In this document: piece by piece, positions 4,533 through 24,309 of the stretch
How the letters are laid out: every line of letters starts with the position of its first letter
How positions within the stretch are numbered: position 1 is the first letter of the stretch
NCBI GenBank assembly: GCA_003245715.1
Contig: QKCJ01000031.1
Location: forward strand, 62,001-126,000
Origin: a bacterium
GTDB lineage: Bacteria > Planctomycetota > SZUA-567
Direction of reading: 5' to 3'
DNA: 64,000 nucleotides
Program-made: the position numbers and the translations under genes
The notes under the pieces: model-generated
The model's database searches: none
The model's input: only the letters and a program-made list of their open reading frames with translations
What the model was told of the DNA's origin: nothing

Positions 4533-6339
4533 TATCAACCATATCCCGGGCTTTCTGCAGGATACCAGAGGCCGCATCTTCATACTCCTTGAGCATACCC
4601 GCTTCATCAGCCAGCGCACTCTCACTGGCCAGTTCAAAATAATAACGGAATTTCGGCTCAGTACCAGACGGTCGCAGCAGAATCCAGCTACGGTCCGGAA
4701 AGATTACCTTCAAACCGTCAATGACATTAATCGAGGCTATTTCCTTCTCGCCAGAAGCAAAAACAACCTTGTCGCCAGCCTTATAGAGTTTATGCTGCAG
4801 AGTATCAACCACCGCCTTCTTATAAGCCTGCCACGCTTCAACGCTCACACCCTTGACATCCGCGCCGGCCTTTGAGGGATAAAAATAACCATACTTCGCG
4901 CGCAGCTTGTCATACTGTACAGACAGATTCTCACCACGGGCAATCATCGCTTCAAGCGCCAGTAATAACCCCGCAAGCGCACACTTCTCAAGCGTATGCC
5001 CCATGCAGGAAATACCGTCAGACTCTTCAAACGCCAGAACGGCCTTGCCACTGCCAAGCGCCTCGCGGAAATTCTTAAAGCCTACCGCAGTTTCAAAGAC
5101 TTCCATTCCCTCTTTCTTGGCGATCTCAAGCGCAAAGTCACTCGACGGTGCTGTTGATGCAATCCCGCCCTTGAGGCCACGCTCAAGCAGACTCGCATAA
5201 GCAATCGCGCCAAAACGGTTCATGTCAATATCCATAAACTCGTCGGCAAAACGGATACGGTCAGCGTCCGGATCGAGCGCAACCGCCAGTGAAAACTTGC
5301 GTCCCATCTCTTTAAGCATTCCAAGCAGCGGAGCCTGATTAGCCGCGCTCGGTTCAGGCTTAACACCGTGAAAACTGTAATCCTCATCCTCATGCAGAAA
5401 CTTGATCGCACCTGCTGCAACCAGCTCGGAAACAACCTGCGCCCCAAGCAGCGCCTGCACATAACCGCGTGACGAGCCGTGCATGAAATCAACAACCAAC
5501 GCCAGATCAGACTTGTTAGCCAGCAGCCACTCACGGATGCGGGTCAGATCAAAGACCTTGCTCTTGGTCGCAACAAAATTGGTGAATATTTCTTTGGCAT
5601 TAATCTCTTCACACCTGCCATCACAGTCAGCCGGAATAAACACCCCGCCATTCATGTACGCATTGGACTTCTCTTCAATGATGCAGGTCAGCTCAGGACC
5701 GGCCGGACCGCCGTCAGCCGGGTTGAATTTCACACCCGCATAATCCATCGGATTATGTGACGGAGTAAAGTTAATTGATCCCGCCGCGTCAAGCTCTGTA
5801 ACCAGAGCAGAGCCGACACCAGTCGGGCACTCGCCAGCCAGATAAACCTTAACGCCCCCCGCAGTCAGCTCACGGATAGCGATCTCCATAAATGAATCGC
5901 CCATAAAGCGGTTGTCGCGGAAGACCACAATCCCATGGCTCTTGACCTCATCAAAGGACTTGTAGCTATTAACCTTCAGAAATTCCGCGCTCTGCATCAT
6001 CTCGACAATACCGCGGATAACCTTCGCGACGTTAAGCCCGGTAAAATCCTCGCCGATAACCCCGCGCCAGCCTGAAGTTCCAAAGACAACTGTCGTAGTC
6101 TCAGACGATTCCATGGCCTTGTTACCCTGAAAGTCACGGATGCTCTCAATAATATCACGACACTCTGAAACAACCTCCGCGCTTGTTCCGGGACGGTTAT
6201 AATACGCGCCGATTTCCTTGGCGACCTCCCAGATCTGGCCACCGGCAATATATGAATCAATCTGCGCCAGAACATCCTTGTCAGAAATTGTCTGCTCCGC
6301 CATTGATTTGACTGAATTTGAAAACTCCGCAACATCCAT
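4525..6339 (-). CDS. Phosphoglucomutase/phosphomannomutase family protein
   Basis: Alpha-D-phosphohexomutase, 604 residues, converting hexose 1- and 6-phosphates through a phosphoserine intermediate. The four domains are recognisable: the start of domain 1 (FGTSGWRGVIGEDFTG), the catalytic serine loop TPSHNPMDYAGVKFN, the metal-binding loop DPDADRIRFAD, the sugar-specificity loop FEESDGISCMGHTLEK and the phosphate-binding RPSGTEPKFRYYF near the C-terminus. About 80 residues precede domain 1, a longer N-terminus than in typical family members. AGGAG lies seven bases before the ATG. It is co-oriented with the coiled-coil receiver gene upstream and overlaps the vanZ-like gene downstream. Whether it prefers glucose or mannose cannot be decided from sequence. 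Confidence 0.92.
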   Translation of the reverse strand: MDVAEFSNSVKSMAEQTISDKDVLAQIDSYIAGGQIWEVAKEIGAYYNRPGTSAEVVSECRDIIESIRDFQGNKAMESSETTTVVFGTSGWRGVIGEDFTGLNVAKVIRGIVEMMQSAEFLKVNSYKSFDEVKSHGIVVFRDNRFMGDSFMEIAIRELTAGGVKVYLAGECPTGVGSALVTELDAAGSINFTPSHNPMDYAGVKFNPADGGPAGPELTCIIEEKSNAYMNGGVFIPADCDGRCEEINAKEIFTNFVATKSKVFDLTRIREWLLANKSDLALVVDFMHGSSRGYVQALLGAQVVSELVAAGAIKFLHEDEDYSFHGVKPEPSAANQAPLLGMLKEMGRKFSLAVALDPDADRIRFADEFMDIDMNRFGAIAYASLLERGLKGGIASTAPSSDFALEIAKKEGMEVFETAVGFKNFREALGSGKAVLAFEESDGISCMGHTLEKCALAGLLLALEAMIARGENLSVQYDKLRAKYGYFYPSKAGADVKGVSVEAWQAYKKAVVDTLQHKLYKAGDKVVFASGEKEIASINVIDGLKVIFPDRSWILLRPSGTEPKFRYYFELASESALADEAGMLKEYEDAASGILQKARDMVDNA

Positions 6340-6403
6340 CTGTATCTCCTGTTTTATTTCCTGTCTTGCATAAATGCAAAGTATAAAGTATCAGCAAAAA
6401 ACT

Positions 6404-8716
6404 TCAAGCCCGGCTGTCAAGCTCAGACAATTTATTACTAAGTTCAAGGCGCTCCATCTGAGAACGTTCATAAAGCTCAGTCAGTTCATCAACGCGCGCC
6501 ATCTGCTTCTGGATAAAATCCTTGTTCGCACTCTCAAGCTCGTCAATCTTGAGCTTCAATTCATTATTCTCACGGATCAGCTCCGCGTCCCCACAGCCAA
6601 GTTCAAGCTCCTCGACCTTCGCCTGCGCGCCAGCCAGCGCCTCCTGCTGGTCATGCACCTCCCACTCAAGATCAACCAGAGACTTCTCAAGTATCTCCAT
6701 CTTCGCTTCACGGGATTGTGCTTTTCTCAGCTCTGTACCCAGCCTGCGCCGGGCAGCCTGCTCAGTCTTAAGCTCAAGGCTAAGCTGGCTGATAGTATCC
6801 GCCAGAACGTCAAATTCATCACTGCGGTCAGCCAGCGCATGCAGACGGTTAACCAGCATCTGCAGGTCCTCAATCCGGCTTGCCATGCCCGCTTTTTCAG
6901 AATGCAAATCACCAATCTGCTCCTCAAGGGCAGCCTTGCGCGCCGCGGCATTCTCAAGCTCTTTTTTAAGCAACTCTATCTCGTCACTCTCACGCGCCAC
7001 CTCAACCGCCGCCTGCTCAAGCTCCTGACAACGGATCGCATAACCGTCGCGCTCCTCCTCGGCAGACGCCAGCTTCCAGAGCGTGTCCTTGACCTCCTCC
7101 TTAAGCCCGTCAACCTCCGCGCGCAGAGTCGCCGCATGCTCTTCAGATTTCTGCAGCGCCGCCTCAACCTTACCGCGTTCAAGCTCCAGATCATTATCAA
7201 GCTTTTCAATCTGCGAAACCCTCAAGGTCAACTGCCCCTGCAGGCTCTTGATCTGCTCATTAAGTTCCGCCGATTTCCCGCTCTCAGCTCTGGCCGCTTC
7301 AACCTTCTTGCGCTCCTGCATCAAATTATTCTCAAGCTCCTTAAGTTGCGCGGCGTTGTTCTCAAGCTGAGCCTGCAAACTTCTGACCTGTTCGTTTAAT
7401 GCCGCAGACTTGTCAGCCTCGACCTTGGCCGCTTCAAGCAGGGATAACATTTCCTTATTATTATTGAGCGCCCCGGCAAGTTCTTTTTCAGATGCGAATA
7501 ATTTCTTCCGCACCGCTTCAACCTCAGCCGCCGAGACCAGTTCCTTCTCACGCTTGAGCGCATCCTCAAGGAGTTTCTCAAGCTTGCTGCGCTCCTCTTC
7601 AACCGATTTGAGATCACTCTCGGAAGAAAGTTTTTTCTCAAGTTCACTAACCCGCGCCTCAGCTTTCTCCCGCGCCTTCTTCTCACGCTCAATAGCAACA
7701 TGTTCCGCTTCAATAAGCGCAGTCTGCCCCGCCTCAAGCTCGCGGCAGCGCTCCTCAAGCACCCTGATAACCCCCTCAAGGTCCTGCATCGCCGACTCCG
7801 CCTCACAGCTCTTCTCAAGCAGAGAATCACCGATAAACACGCCAGAATCCACCGCCGCAGTCTGATCCGCAATCTCCCTGACCTCTTCAGCCGAGAGACA
7901 ATTATCGTCTACTTTTTCTACTTCTTCAGGCGAAATATCCTCAGACGCAACCTCAGCGTCCTGCTGCTGACCGGCCATATCACAGATCCCCGGCTCAGCC
8001 ACAACACTCTGACTATCACCCTCAGCCGGCTCTTCATCACTGGCCGCCTCAGCCGCTTCCTGCGCCGCAACTGACTCCACCTTAAAGTTATCAACCTCGT
8101 CCCCGATAGTCGCAGAGAAACCAGCATCCTGCGTTACAGGTTCCTGAACAATTTCATCCTCTTGCGTAACCTCACAGATGACCTCCGCCGAGAGTTCTTC
8201 AATATCTGCCGCGTCAAGCTCGTTCTCACTGTCATCTTCCTCGACATCCAGCTCAAGCTCCGCCGGATCAATCCCCTTAACAGCTTCAGGCTCTGCCGCC
8301 GCAGCTTTATTAAACGGCCCCGAAGTATCAACCCCAGCGTCACTGAAAGCAGCGCAGACATTTATCGCGCCGTTAATATCAACCTCGCCATTGCGAAACG
8401 TGCCGACCGCACCAAGCGAGATGACTTCATGCTCAAGGTGATGTTCGTCATGGTTAAGCAGCACCGCCACCGGCGTCTCACGCGCCAGCATCTTCATAGA
8501 CTTTAAAACATCAATCCCCTCACCATCACGCAGATGCAGCGAGAGCAGAACCAGATCAAACCTGCCGTCATCAAGACGATGCCCCGCGTCACGGATATTG
8601 GAAGAAGTGTTGAGCTTGACCCGCCCACCGGCCTCACGGATAAACTGCGAGAAAGTCGCACTCATACCACGCTGACAGTTTTCGACCAACAGAATTCTCT
8701 TGGCAGTATCGGTCAT
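6404..8716 (-). CDS. Degenerate receiver domain fused to a long coiled coil
   Basis: A 770-residue protein. Residues 1-120 have the CheY-like receiver pattern (KRILLVEN..., DLVLLSLHLRDGEGIDVL, GAVGTFRNGEV), but the phosphoacceptor aspartate is serine (S59), the acidic pair is E12-N13, and the conserved lysine near 109 is lost. It should therefore not be phosphorylated in the usual way. Residues 150-290 are very acidic and probably disordered. From about 300 to the end the sequence is heptad-like, rich in E, K, L, A, and almost certainly a long coiled coil. It lies downstream of an FHA/Ser-Thr kinase gene and upstream of the phosphohexomutase. A structural or scaffolding role is inferred; no function is known. 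Confidence 0.85.
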   Translation of the reverse strand: MTDTAKRILLVENCQRGMSATFSQFIREAGGRVKLNTSSNIRDAGHRLDDGRFDLVLLSLHLRDGEGIDVLKSMKMLARETPVAVLLNHDEHHLEHEVISLGAVGTFRNGEVDINGAINVCAAFSDAGVDTSGPFNKAAAAEPEAVKGIDPAELELDVEEDDSENELDAADIEELSAEVICEVTQEDEIVQEPVTQDAGFSATIGDEVDNFKVESVAAQEAAEAASDEEPAEGDSQSVVAEPGICDMAGQQQDAEVASEDISPEEVEKVDDNCLSAEEVREIADQTAAVDSGVFIGDSLLEKSCEAESAMQDLEGVIRVLEERCRELEAGQTALIEAEHVAIEREKKAREKAEARVSELEKKLSSESDLKSVEEERSKLEKLLEDALKREKELVSAAEVEAVRKKLFASEKELAGALNNNKEMLSLLEAAKVEADKSAALNEQVRSLQAQLENNAAQLKELENNLMQERKKVEAARAESGKSAELNEQIKSLQGQLTLRVSQIEKLDNDLELERGKVEAALQKSEEHAATLRAEVDGLKEEVKDTLWKLASAEEERDGYAIRCQELEQAAVEVARESDEIELLKKELENAAARKAALEEQIGDLHSEKAGMASRIEDLQMLVNRLHALADRSDEFDVLADTISQLSLELKTEQAARRRLGTELRKAQSREAKMEILEKSLVDLEWEVHDQQEALAGAQAKVEELELGCGDAELIRENNELKLKIDELESANKDFIQKQMARVDELTELYERSQMERLELSNKLSELDSRA

Positions 8717-19566: not shown

Positions 19567-21003
19567 TCAGTGACAGCAGCAGGAACCACCGCTGTCTTTT
19601 TTGTCTTCGTCCTTCTTCTCGCCTGAACAGCAATCATTTTTTTCTGATTTTTCATCTTTGCCAGAGCAGCAGTCAGATTTTTCCGTTTTGTCTTCATGAC
19701 CGGAGCAGCAGGAATGGTCATCTTTATTTTCTGTTTCCTTGTCGCCACTGCAGCAGCAGCCTGAAGATTTCTCCGGTTTATGCTCTGAGCAGCAGGAGGA
19801 TTCTTTTACTGGCGGAGTTTTTTCCGAGCAGCTGCCTGAAGACTTTGCCTCTTGGCTCTCACCATGACTGCAGCAGGATGAAGCTGTAGCGTGGCTAACG
19901 ACCGGTGCGCTCTGGCTTTCATGTGAGCAGCAGCTTTCTGCCGGGGCAGGAGCGCCACTGAACCAGCCCTTGATTTTACCGGAAAAGGCGCTGTGAAGCT
20001 GGACAAGTATTAGCGCTACAGCAGCCAGATCAGGCAGCCAGCCGGACGTTTCTGCATGCCGGTGCACCATCTCGGCTGGCGGGACGAAGTTAAAGACCGT
20101 CCAGATATAGTCAAGCAGCACGCCACCCAGAACCGCACCGATAACAATTGCCAGAAGCACCGCAATTGTTGACCTCTTGCCGATCATCTTCCAGAGAACG
20201 GTCAGCGTCGCGGCATTTGTGGCCGGGCCTGAAACGAGAAAGACCAGCGCCGCACCCGGACTTGCGCCAAGGGCGATAAAACCGATTGCCAGCGGAATTG
20301 AGGCAGTAGAACAGACATAAAGCGGGATACCGATAACCAGCATTATCAGCATCGTGCCAAAGCCGCCGCCGAGAAATTCATTGACGATACCGGTGTCAAC
20401 AAGCGCGGAAATTATACCGGCGACCAGAATACCGATTGCCAGAGGTTTGCCGATGTCTTTAGGCAGGCGAACCAGCCCGTAGCGCAGAGCCTTGAGAACG
20501 GCCTGAGGGATGGAAAGTTTCTCATGGGTTGGCCCGTGTTCCGAGCAGCATGAGCCTTCCTCTTTTTTCTCGACAAACTCCTCGACGTCCTTCTCACCGA
20601 AAAAGTTCGCCAGGATGCCGCCGAAAATGCCGATCACAACCGCAAGAAACGCACGGTATAAGGAGAATAATGGGCCGAGCATACTCCACGCCGCCATGAT
20701 CGAATCGACACCGGTTGTCGGCGTAGAGATCAGAAACGACGCCGTAGCGCCCCGCCCCGCCCCGTGCTTGCGCAGAGACGCCGTAACCGGGATAACCCCG
20801 CATGAACAGAGCGGTAAAGGCATACCAAGCAGCGCCGCCTTAACCGTTGATGCCAGACTACCGCCACCGAGATGCCGCTCAACCAGCTCCGGCGTGATAA
20901 ATATTGACAAGATCCCCGCAACCAGATAACCCAGAAGAAGATACGGCGCCATCAATCCCAGCGTATTCCAGATGGAGGTTAAAAATGATATGATAAAGTC
21001 CAT
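19567..21003 (-). CDS. SO_0444/YraQ-type metal permease with cysteine-rich tail
   Basis: 478-residue permease. The membrane part (residues 1 to about 350) carries two homologous blocks: MPLPLCSCGVIPVTASLRK with FLISTPTTGVDS, and VCSTASIPLAIGFIALG with FLVSGPATNAATL. This is typical of the SO_0444-type Cu/Zn efflux branch of the UPF0718/ArsP superfamily. A cytoplasmic loop holds SCCSEHG. The last 120 residues are a hydrophilic tail with about nine repeated cysteine motifs (CCSH, CCSG, CCCSG, CCCH) between Lys/Glu/Ser spacers, almost certainly a thiol metal-binding region. Copper, zinc or arsenite export is the best guess; the metal is not determinable. It lies near an HtrA protease and SelD genes. 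Confidence 0.85.
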   Translation of the reverse strand: MDFIISFLTSIWNTLGLMAPYLLLGYLVAGILSIFITPELVERHLGGGSLASTVKAALLGMPLPLCSCGVIPVTASLRKHGAGRGATASFLISTPTTGVDSIMAAWSMLGPLFSLYRAFLAVVIGIFGGILANFFGEKDVEEFVEKKEEGSCCSEHGPTHEKLSIPQAVLKALRYGLVRLPKDIGKPLAIGILVAGIISALVDTGIVNEFLGGGFGTMLIMLVIGIPLYVCSTASIPLAIGFIALGASPGAALVFLVSGPATNAATLTVLWKMIGKRSTIAVLLAIVIGAVLGGVLLDYIWTVFNFVPPAEMVHRHAETSGWLPDLAAVALILVQLHSAFSGKIKGWFSGAPAPAESCCSHESQSAPVVSHATASSCCSHGESQEAKSSGSCSEKTPPVKESSCCSEHKPEKSSGCCCSGDKETENKDDHSCCSGHEDKTEKSDCCSGKDEKSEKNDCCSGEKKDEDKKDSGGSCCCH

Positions 21004-22551: not shown

Positions 22552-24309
22552 ATGACACCAGAGCAAGCAGCAAAACGCAAACGAATCATGCAACGATCCA
22601 TCTCCCTCGGGCATTGTGTCTGTGATCCGCAAAAGCCCTGCCCCTGCCCTTTATTTAAAGAGAAGAATATCTGCGAGTGCGCCGGCGAGAGATTGCCGGT
22701 CTCTGAGGGGCCGGTGCGCCTTACGGAGCATGTGCGCGCGGCCGGGTGTGCTTCAAAGATCGGACGCAAGGAACTGGCGGAGGCTTTGGCGGGCTTGCCG
22801 GATATTGATGATCCGCGGGTAGTTGTCGGCCGGAGTGCCGGGGATGATGCGGGGATTATCATGCTCACGGAGGACACGGCGACGGTTTTGACGGTTGATG
22901 TCTTTGCGCCGTCTGTTGATGACCCGTACACCTTCGGGCAGATTGCGGCGGCCAACAGTCTCAGTGATATTTATGCGATGGGAGCGAAGGCCGAGTCGGC
23001 GCTCTCGATTGTCGGCTTTCCGATCCATACGCTTGCGCCGGAGGTGATGCGCAAGATTCTGCGTGGCGGCATCGACAAGATGGCTGAGGCGGGGGTAAGC
23101 GTTATCGGCGGGCATAGCATTAATGATGAAGAGATCAAGTGCGGCTTTGCGGTGCTTGGTACGGCGGGCGCGGGCAAGTTCATGCAGCACGCGGGGGCGG
23201 AAGTTGGCGATGTGATAATTCTGACCAAGCCGCTTGGCAATGGCATCACCGCCTTTGCCGCGCAGATGGGGTGGGCATCCCGGCATGAGCAGGACGAGAT
23301 CGCCGCGGCGATGATTCATCTAAACAAGACTGAAGGCGAGCTGATGCAGAAATACGGTGCTACGGCGGCTACCGACATTACCGGCTTCTCGCTGCTTGGG
23401 CATCTGGCGAATATCGTCAGCAAATCCGGTATTGAGGCCACGCTAGATTTTGATGAGCTGCCATTATTCTCGCAGGTACTCTCCTATGCGGCGTGTGACG
23501 CGTTTCCGGGGGCGGTGGAGCGTAACCGCGAGTCGGTTGACGCGGCGCTGCTTGACTTTGGCGGCCTGCCTGAGCGATTGCAGAATATTCTCTTTGGCCC
23601 GGAAACCAGCGGCGGGCTTCTGGTCTTCCTGCCTGAAGATAAAGCGGAAAGCTATATTCATGACCTGCGCAGGAGCGGTAATGCGTGGGTGAAGAAGATC
23701 GGCTCGGTGACCGGCAGTAATGAAGCGGGACTGATAAAGATTTCTGGCGGTGCGGGGATTGATCTTGACGGGCTTTATGCAAAGGCGGATTTCAGAAACA
23801 CCGCTGCAGATGAAATAGATGATGTACAGGAGCTGTCTTCGGAATGTTGCTGTAACGGAAATAATGGGAGCATTGACAAAATTTCTGAGAACGGCGCGGC
23901 TTATGAGACCAGCACCGGGGGAAATTCCTGTTGCTGCAGTGACGGCGGAGCGGAAAAAAATAATAAAAATCCGCAGAATGCTTCAGCCTGCTGCAGTGGT
24001 GCAATTGATCCAGTAAAAAGCGTTAGCGGATTGGTCAAAGCTGCTGCCGCATCAGAATTTGGCGCATATATGGCGGCGGTAAACAACCCAGGCGCACTTG
24101 ATATAAAAAATAAAAAACTTATCGCCCTGGCTTTGTCGGTATCGCACAAATGCGAAGAGTGTGTTATTATTAATACAGAGGCTGCACAAAAGGCCGGAGC
24201 AAGTGCGCTGGAAATTTCAGAAGCGGTGGCGCTGGGAATTTCCTTTGGCGGGGCATCAGCGAACATGTTCTACCAGACACTTTTAAAACGCCGCAATCAG
24301 CCGCAATAA
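22552..24309 (+). CDS. selD: Selenide, water dikinase (SelD) fused to an AhpD/CMD domain
   Basis: 585 residues in four parts. Residues 15-46 hold six cysteines in CxC pairs (C22, C24, C30, C32, C41, C43). The SelD core spans about 55-400: RLTEHVRAAGC66ASK69 keeps the essential Cys and Lys, though the second Cys of the usual GCGCK is serine; GRSAGDDAG, VDVFAPSVDDPYTFGQIAA and VIGGHS follow. Residues 430-483 are a linker with three vicinal-cysteine clusters (C432-434, C460-462, C480-481). The last 100 residues are a carboxymuconolactone decarboxylase/AhpD-like domain with a CEEC (C534, C537) redox pair. SelD makes selenophosphate from selenide and ATP for selenocysteine or selenouridine. The added domains suggest thiol redox or substrate capture. 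AAGGGG precedes the ATG. No selA or selB is in the window. Confidence 0.9.
   Translation: MTPEQAAKRKRIMQRSISLGHCVCDPQKPCPCPLFKEKNICECAGERLPVSEGPVRLTEHVRAAGCASKIGRKELAEALAGLPDIDDPRVVVGRSAGDDAGIIMLTEDTATVLTVDVFAPSVDDPYTFGQIAAANSLSDIYAMGAKAESALSIVGFPIHTLAPEVMRKILRGGIDKMAEAGVSVIGGHSINDEEIKCGFAVLGTAGAGKFMQHAGAEVGDVIILTKPLGNGITAFAAQMGWASRHEQDEIAAAMIHLNKTEGELMQKYGATAATDITGFSLLGHLANIVSKSGIEATLDFDELPLFSQVLSYAACDAFPGAVERNRESVDAALLDFGGLPERLQNILFGPETSGGLLVFLPEDKAESYIHDLRRSGNAWVKKIGSVTGSNEAGLIKISGGAGIDLDGLYAKADFRNTAADEIDDVQELSSECCCNGNNGSIDKISENGAAYETSTGGNSCCCSDGGAEKNNKNPQNASACCSGAIDPVKSVSGLVKAAAASEFGAYMAAVNNPGALDIKNKKLIALALSVSHKCEECVIINTEAAQKAGASALEISEAVALGISFGGASANMFYQTLLKRRNQPQ

Follow-up and report, generated by a model that had tools for sequence, protein, structure and literature searches.

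A selenophosphate synthetase fused to a conserved N-terminal three-CxC domain and a CMD/AhpD-like domain, with a possible built-in thiol relay for selenium

Selenophosphate synthetase (SelD; TIGR00476), as represented by the proteins of E. coli (3u0o) and Aquifex (2yye), is known to occur in fused forms. SelD fusions to NDH and NifS domains have been described (PMC2398784), and a 2015 survey of prokaryotic fusions reported the same two partners, all of them N-terminal and nearly always attached to a Cys-type SelD (PMC4561486). The form in which selenium reaches SelD in vivo, as well as its donor, are incompletely elucidated, thiol systems being among the candidates (PMC13188914); we relate this in part to the candidate donors being separate, redundant proteins. 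The fusion analysed here shares with 3u0o and 2yye the core fold, the sequence, the catalytic Cys and Lys, and the selenocysteine (Sec) context, but it adds an N-terminal CxC domain, a CC arm and a CMD, and its active site reads G-C-A-S-K as against the GCGCK, GCACK or GUxxK of known SelDs. With NDH-SelD and NifS-SelD it has in common that a SelD, nearly always of the Cys type and from Sec-using genomes, is joined to a redox or selenium-donor domain. In contrast, these two carry FAD or PLP enzymes at their N-terminus, whereas the present fusion, with its small CxC domain at the N-terminus and its CMD at the C-terminus, gave no Pfam or NCBIfam match to an NDH or NifS domain. The initial annotation knew of no SelD-CMD fusion, and no fusion of SelD with CMD or AhpD was found in the passages of the accessible literature that were searched; the protein thus differs from the published SelD fusions found there.

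The gene lies on the forward strand at 22552..24309 of the window (the whole 64,000-nucleotide stretch of DNA that was analysed), starts with ATG and encodes 585 aa followed by a stop codon; all parts listed below are on the same (+) strand. TIGR00476 matched residues 56-364 with 330.1 bits (cut-off, 125), and the AIRS and AIRS_C Pfam domains were also found. The catalytic core, delimited at about residues 55-396 (22714..23739) by TIGR00476, Foldseek and phmmer, matched Aquifex 2yye in Foldseek (3e-31; 35% identity), which also grouped it with E. coli SelD, and E. coli 3u0o in phmmer (4e-59). The catalytic Cys and Lys that had been read from the sequence are both in place, C66 and K69 corresponding to C17/K20 of E. 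coli SelD in the 3u0o alignment and being invariant (16/16) in the family alignment, in which the catalytic motif C66-A-S-K69 (22747..22758) holds Cys and not Sec. Residues D98, D99, D116, D139 and D275 are likewise family-invariant, in columns that align with E. coli SelD, and correspond to the ATP/Mg region. The core is preceded by the N-terminal domain (residues 1-50; 22552..22701), with the pattern CxC-x5-CPC-x8-CxC, and followed by a flexible arm (residues 397-500; 23740..24051) and by the CMD/AhpD-like domain (24052..24306), placed by Pfam match, AF2 and alignment. In the AF2 model of the full-length protein, the SelD core and the CMD helical bundle are confident with the arm between them (pLDDT <50 at 417-495), and the first 60 residues reach pLDDT 65-72, rising to 86 when the N-terminal domain is modelled alone. 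As the arm is predicted to be disordered, its Cys pair could travel between domains. The HMM search bore out the C-terminal CMD with a CEEC pair proposed by the initial annotation: PF02627 matched residues 503-569 with 42.1 bits (cut-off, 23), the TIGR00778 AhpD core scored 29.1 bits (cut-off, 27.8), and alignment to AhpD proteins located the redox pair C534-E-E-C537 at 24151..24162.

The same layout recurs in other genomes. A whole-genome search and a scan of the collection yielded six further proteins with the fusion layout, and a profile of the first 49 residues gave 14 strong matches in 392 genomes of the phylum, all on SelD open reading frames, the next-best match having E = 0.005. These 14, together with three proteins from the collection scan, make up the 17 genomes that share the order N-terminal CxC-x5-CPC-x8-CxC domain, SelD, CC-pair arm and CMD with CxxC. 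Fourteen of the 17 fusions lie on one open reading frame with all parts (among these, L172 starts at the contig start), the fusion of G064 is split over two contigs, and two others are cut by contig ends. The CMD profile matched 14 of 16 relatives, the remaining two being truncated at contig ends. Loss of the CMD in L168, L169 and L173, which end early, is ruled out: contig ends are the cause in each, and for one of them, from G064, the absent linker and CMD were recovered, with tRNA-Sec and NapH, on another contig. Homologues that genuinely stop before the linker, which the initial annotation had envisaged as a sign of a fusion peculiar to one assembly, were therefore not encountered, and 17 genomes, including a one-contig genome, rule out both an assembly artefact and a fusion unique to this assembly. 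The sampled genomes mostly appear to be draft or metagenome-assembled; beyond the phylum, the picture of the distribution comes from a single pattern-based scan of 84,980 species, a method that detects close relatives only. In a tree of 107 SelDs the fusion cores form one clade (support, 100/100), and none of the 91 non-fusion SelDs of this tree has the N-terminal motif or a CMD; no separate CMD gene was seen beside a non-fused selD in the fetched loci. As a side observation, in four members of the family of the window genome (G002, G008, G013 and G015) SelD is of the Cys type, divergent and not fused (GCGAK or GCGTK), and neither a clear selA nor a convincing tRNA-Sec is present; their SelD may serve another selenium use.

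The fusion contains 19 Cys, 16 of which lie beyond the SelD core, in a stretch totalling 243 residues; those that concern us are at positions 22, 24, 30, 32, 41, 43, 66, 432-434, 460-462, 480-481, 534 and 537. All 8 linker Cys stand in runs, an arrangement equalled in 0 of 20,000 shuffles, so their clustering is not due to chance. In the family alignment (16 rows, some of which stop before the arm or the CMD), the six N-terminal Cys (C22, C24, C30, C32, C41 and C43, all found as first described) and C66 are conserved in 16/16 rows, C460-C461 in 15/15 and the CMD CxxC (C534 and C537) in 14/14 rows reaching those columns. These eleven Cys are invariant despite an identity to the window protein of merely 43-62% among the relatives. 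The three linker clusters noted earlier are all present, namely CCC at C432-434 (23845..23853), CCC at C460-462 (23929..23937) and CC at C480-481 (23989..23994), but column counts show that conservation is limited to the one pair C460-C461, the other two clusters being lineage extras: C432-434, C480-481, C462 and the other core cysteines are unconserved among relatives. The arm varies by species in length and in extra Cys (2 to 10 Cys), one CC pair before the CMD being always kept.

The CMD belongs by domain family and CxxC with the CMD/AhpD proteins (PF02627; 7y4r, 5dik), which include the selenoprotein-associated MduS and ArsM-AhpD families. It differs from them in its partner, which is SelD and not a methyltransferase, and in having Lys and Asn at the positions of the catalytic Glu and His, both of which the solved CMD/AhpD proteins in the alignment possess; the His position is retained in some fusion relatives. 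In M. tuberculosis AhpD, the Glu and His of the proton relay are Glu118 and His137. Since the CMD of the window protein lacks this Glu and His, it is unlikely to be a canonical AhpD peroxidase, as judged from the alignment, and dithiol chemistry by its CxxC is possible. AhpD-type domains assemble, and the same substitutions would suit a purely structural explanation, in which the CMD is an oligomerisation handle and the three-CxC domain a zinc site, the two stabilising or clustering SelD or docking it to SelA with no contact to selenium. CxC metal-binding motifs are common and the SelD core is otherwise ordinary, as this explanation would have it; however, pure oligomerisation does not need an invariant CxxC (14/14) and CC pair (15/15), and a disordered arm with a Cys pair has no obvious structural purpose. 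We consider this explanation unlikely.

The genomic setting ties the protein to selenocysteine. The window genome (G000) has no SelD besides the fusion; it encodes SelA (479 bits) and, adjacent to it on contig C15, SelB (309 bits), and tRNA-Sec (74 bits) is on contig C50. The initial annotation had called for a survey of genomic partners, naming selA, selB and selenouridine synthase among others: the fusion adjoins Sec genes (tRNA-Sec and/or selA, selB) in 12 of the 17 genomes, with the order fusion, tRNA-Sec, selA, selB in G006 and G017 and similar clusters in G041, G042, G043, G064, G123, G141, G254, G298, G300 and G390, and the selenouridine synthase TIGR03167 is absent from the window genome, so that selenouridine use by this genome was rejected. 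A role in the Sec pathway is strongly supported: in most relatives the fusion lies beside Sec genes, and in the window genome a complete Sec set occurs with no other SelD, so the fusion very probably makes the selenophosphate for selenocysteine. That we are dealing with a SelD-like protein of non-selenium purpose, making for instance a thiophosphate, is extremely improbable; for archaea, SelD-like proteins related to sulfur have been proposed (PMC9312934), but the present protein is well over the SelD cut-off, keeps the catalytic Cys and Lys, and has no companion SelD in its genome, which encodes SelA, SelB and tRNA-Sec.

Clustering of all open reading frames of the fusion loci brought out a second recurrent partner, a NapH-like protein that is polytopic in the membrane and in which CxxCP and 4Fe-4S cysteine motifs are conserved. 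Its gene is found in the Sec loci of 12 of the 17 fusion genomes, as opposed to 0 of 105 non-fusion SelD/SelA loci. Phylum-wide, strong matches (E<=1e-60) occurred in 12/14 fusion versus 12/378 non-fusion genomes (Fisher p about 1e-14), a count which favours the fusion genomes in that the profile was built from them. Ten of these 12 non-fusion genomes have selA, located no more than about 4 kb from the NapH-like gene in G039, G052, G093 and G215. The protein is thus not fusion-specific, as it also goes with non-fused SelD where Sec is used; part of its association with the fusion therefore reflects Sec use as such, and it is tied to selenium use in the phylum beyond the fusion alone. Directly upstream of the NapH-like gene, many loci encode a small protein with a single helix and a C-terminal Cys-Pro-Thr (or C-K-T, C-A-T). 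Both genes come after selAB in the window genome (L119, on contig C15 of G000, 5047-6908), and equivalent pairs are present in L022, L023, L123, L167, L170, L172, L174, L175 and L186. No family was found for the small C-x-T proteins scanned; together with the NapH-like protein, they look like an uncharacterised selenium-linked membrane electron-transfer pair.

Many fusion loci additionally encode a class I methyltransferase, up to three HGD-D/double-cubane proteins and a BadF/HgdC-type activase. The methyltransferase was present in 10/17 fusion versus 1/16 non-fusion genomes tested, and the full set, with three HGD-D/double-cubane proteins, lies beside selD in L021 (5064-10515), L022 (9795-16058), L023 (2891-7975) and L167 (9535-14679). 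This cluster is a candidate selenium-related reductive system. In a STRING table for Slackia, 2-hydroxyglutaryl-CoA dehydratase subunits and a CoA-enzyme activase are linked to selenium genes (PMC5322559). Separately, we observed that among 14 control genomes the double-cubane family NF040772 occurs in E. coli and M. jannaschii only, the same two that have the SelA family; that G064 and G390 are without the class I methyltransferase; and that sequences resembling UroD/MtaA methyltransferases can be seen by eye in L169 (5942-8079; G064) and L171 (3800-4200; G390). The frequent adjacency of the set, together with its methyltransferase counts, would fit an explanation in which the added modules accept selenium freed from methylated compounds by these enzymes, the fusion being a docking SelD, and for a separate corrinoid methyltransferase cluster a link with the use of methyl-selenide has been described (PMC10418091). 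Against this, neither the methyltransferase nor a double-cubane protein occurs in the window genome (91% complete) or in several others, which rules the set out as an obligatory partner; we hold the explanation to be very improbable.

A further neighbour is seen in the window. At 19567-21003 (-), 1.5 kb from the fusion, lies a permease of the SO_0444 family (NF033936; 341 bits, cut-off 300). Its C-terminal tail, which is long, hydrophilic and rich in CC and CCC clusters, recalls the SelD linker of the same genome, and shared soft-metal- or chalcogen-binding tails are possible. This permease was the only hint of a role with other metalloids, which the initial annotation had also entertained; that suggestion found no support, the gene not having been found beside the fusions of the relatives. 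The same permease can be read as favouring a protective or regulatory function, in which the Cys modules, acting as a redox switch or as a buffer of thiols, would keep the Cys active site reduced or shut SelD off under oxidative or metal stress. Consistent with such a need, the active site is G-C-A-S-K in nearly all fusion members, and that of neighbouring SelDs is GUAAK, GUACK, GUAGK or GCACK: the fusion clade thus has Cys where many nearby SelDs have Sec, and Ser or Ala in place of the second active-site Cys of the GCACK types. A protective function is nevertheless improbable, given that the permease is not recurrent in the family comparison and that most members have Sec genes and electron-transfer proteins for neighbours instead of stress genes.

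The N-terminal segment forms a conserved domain by itself and is more than a set of extra cysteines. It gave no Pfam match in 16 members, even at E<=10, and no PDB sequence match, and among the 392 genomes of the phylum, where 14/14 strong matches are on SelD, neither an occurrence without SelD nor a free-standing family was found. Its CPC-x8-CxC half, which comes after a helix and a further CxC, resembles the catalytic chain of ferredoxin:thioredoxin reductase (FTR; PF02943), a likeness noted before the fold search. In Foldseek, FTR catalytic chains made up 5 of the 7 PDB matches to the domain model at E<=10, each of them insignificant (E 6-8). Comparison with the FTR profile gave P = 0.003, yet the score was reached by 5 of 60 control alignments in which every column other than the Cys had been permuted; PF02943 had no match at E<=10 in 16/16 members. 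The Cys pattern of the FTR family is CPC, about 14-16 residues, CPC, about 8-12 residues, CxC; the second spacer of the domain (x8) fits it, and the first is x5. Membership in the FTR family was rejected by the profile tests; the modelled fold match is suggestive only and is taken as a lead. A true FTR gene is present elsewhere in the window genome. The N-terminal Cys may form a metal or Fe-S site or be simple dithiols. On a decidedly unlikely version of events, the domain would be a minimal relative or analogue of the FTR core, with a [4Fe-4S] cluster beside a disulfide, through which electrons from the NapH-like protein of the Sec operon or from ferredoxin would power a direct reduction of selenium to selenide at the active site by the CMD CxxC and the CC arm; if true, this self-reducing SelD would be a single-polypeptide electron-to-selenophosphate machine operating without thioredoxin or glutathione.

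The reading that we prefer, and to which we give about half of our confidence, is that the protein is a true SelD and that a thiol relay within it would capture and reduce selenium for the Sec pathway. Selenium would arrive as thiol-bound Se(0) or as selenite-derived RS-Se-SR and be taken up by the paired Cys of the flexible arm and by the CMD CxxC, where dithiol exchange would reduce it. Selenide or perselenide would then be handed to Cys66, and SelD would form selenophosphate for SelA. The N-terminal three-CxC domain, whether through a metal or Fe-S cluster or through more dithiols, would re-reduce the relay, with electrons possibly supplied by the NapH-like [4Fe-4S] protein of the membrane, whose gene accompanies those for Sec. 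The CMD, however, may serve oligomerisation only, the CxC domain may bind structural zinc, and the double-cubane/methyltransferase set, missing from the window genome, is hence not required. The redox or selenium-delivery role first suggested for the added domains is supported indirectly by its setting, namely a complete Sec pathway with no other SelD, Sec genes as neighbours in most relatives and a recurrent membrane Fe-S protein, while the capture and transfer of selenium, the carriage of selenium or electrons by the modules, the direction of flow and the ligands of the N-terminal Cys are what we infer.

With conserved Cys of a putative relay in cis and no second SelD in the genome, the question of the selenium donor becomes one of domain deletions and Cys mutants of one protein. 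The fusion also exposes an uncharacterised domain, and it links a membrane Fe-S protein family and, in the relatives, double-cubane reductases to selenium assimilation. In these bacteria, the fused SelD may carry its own apparatus for the capture and reduction of selenium.
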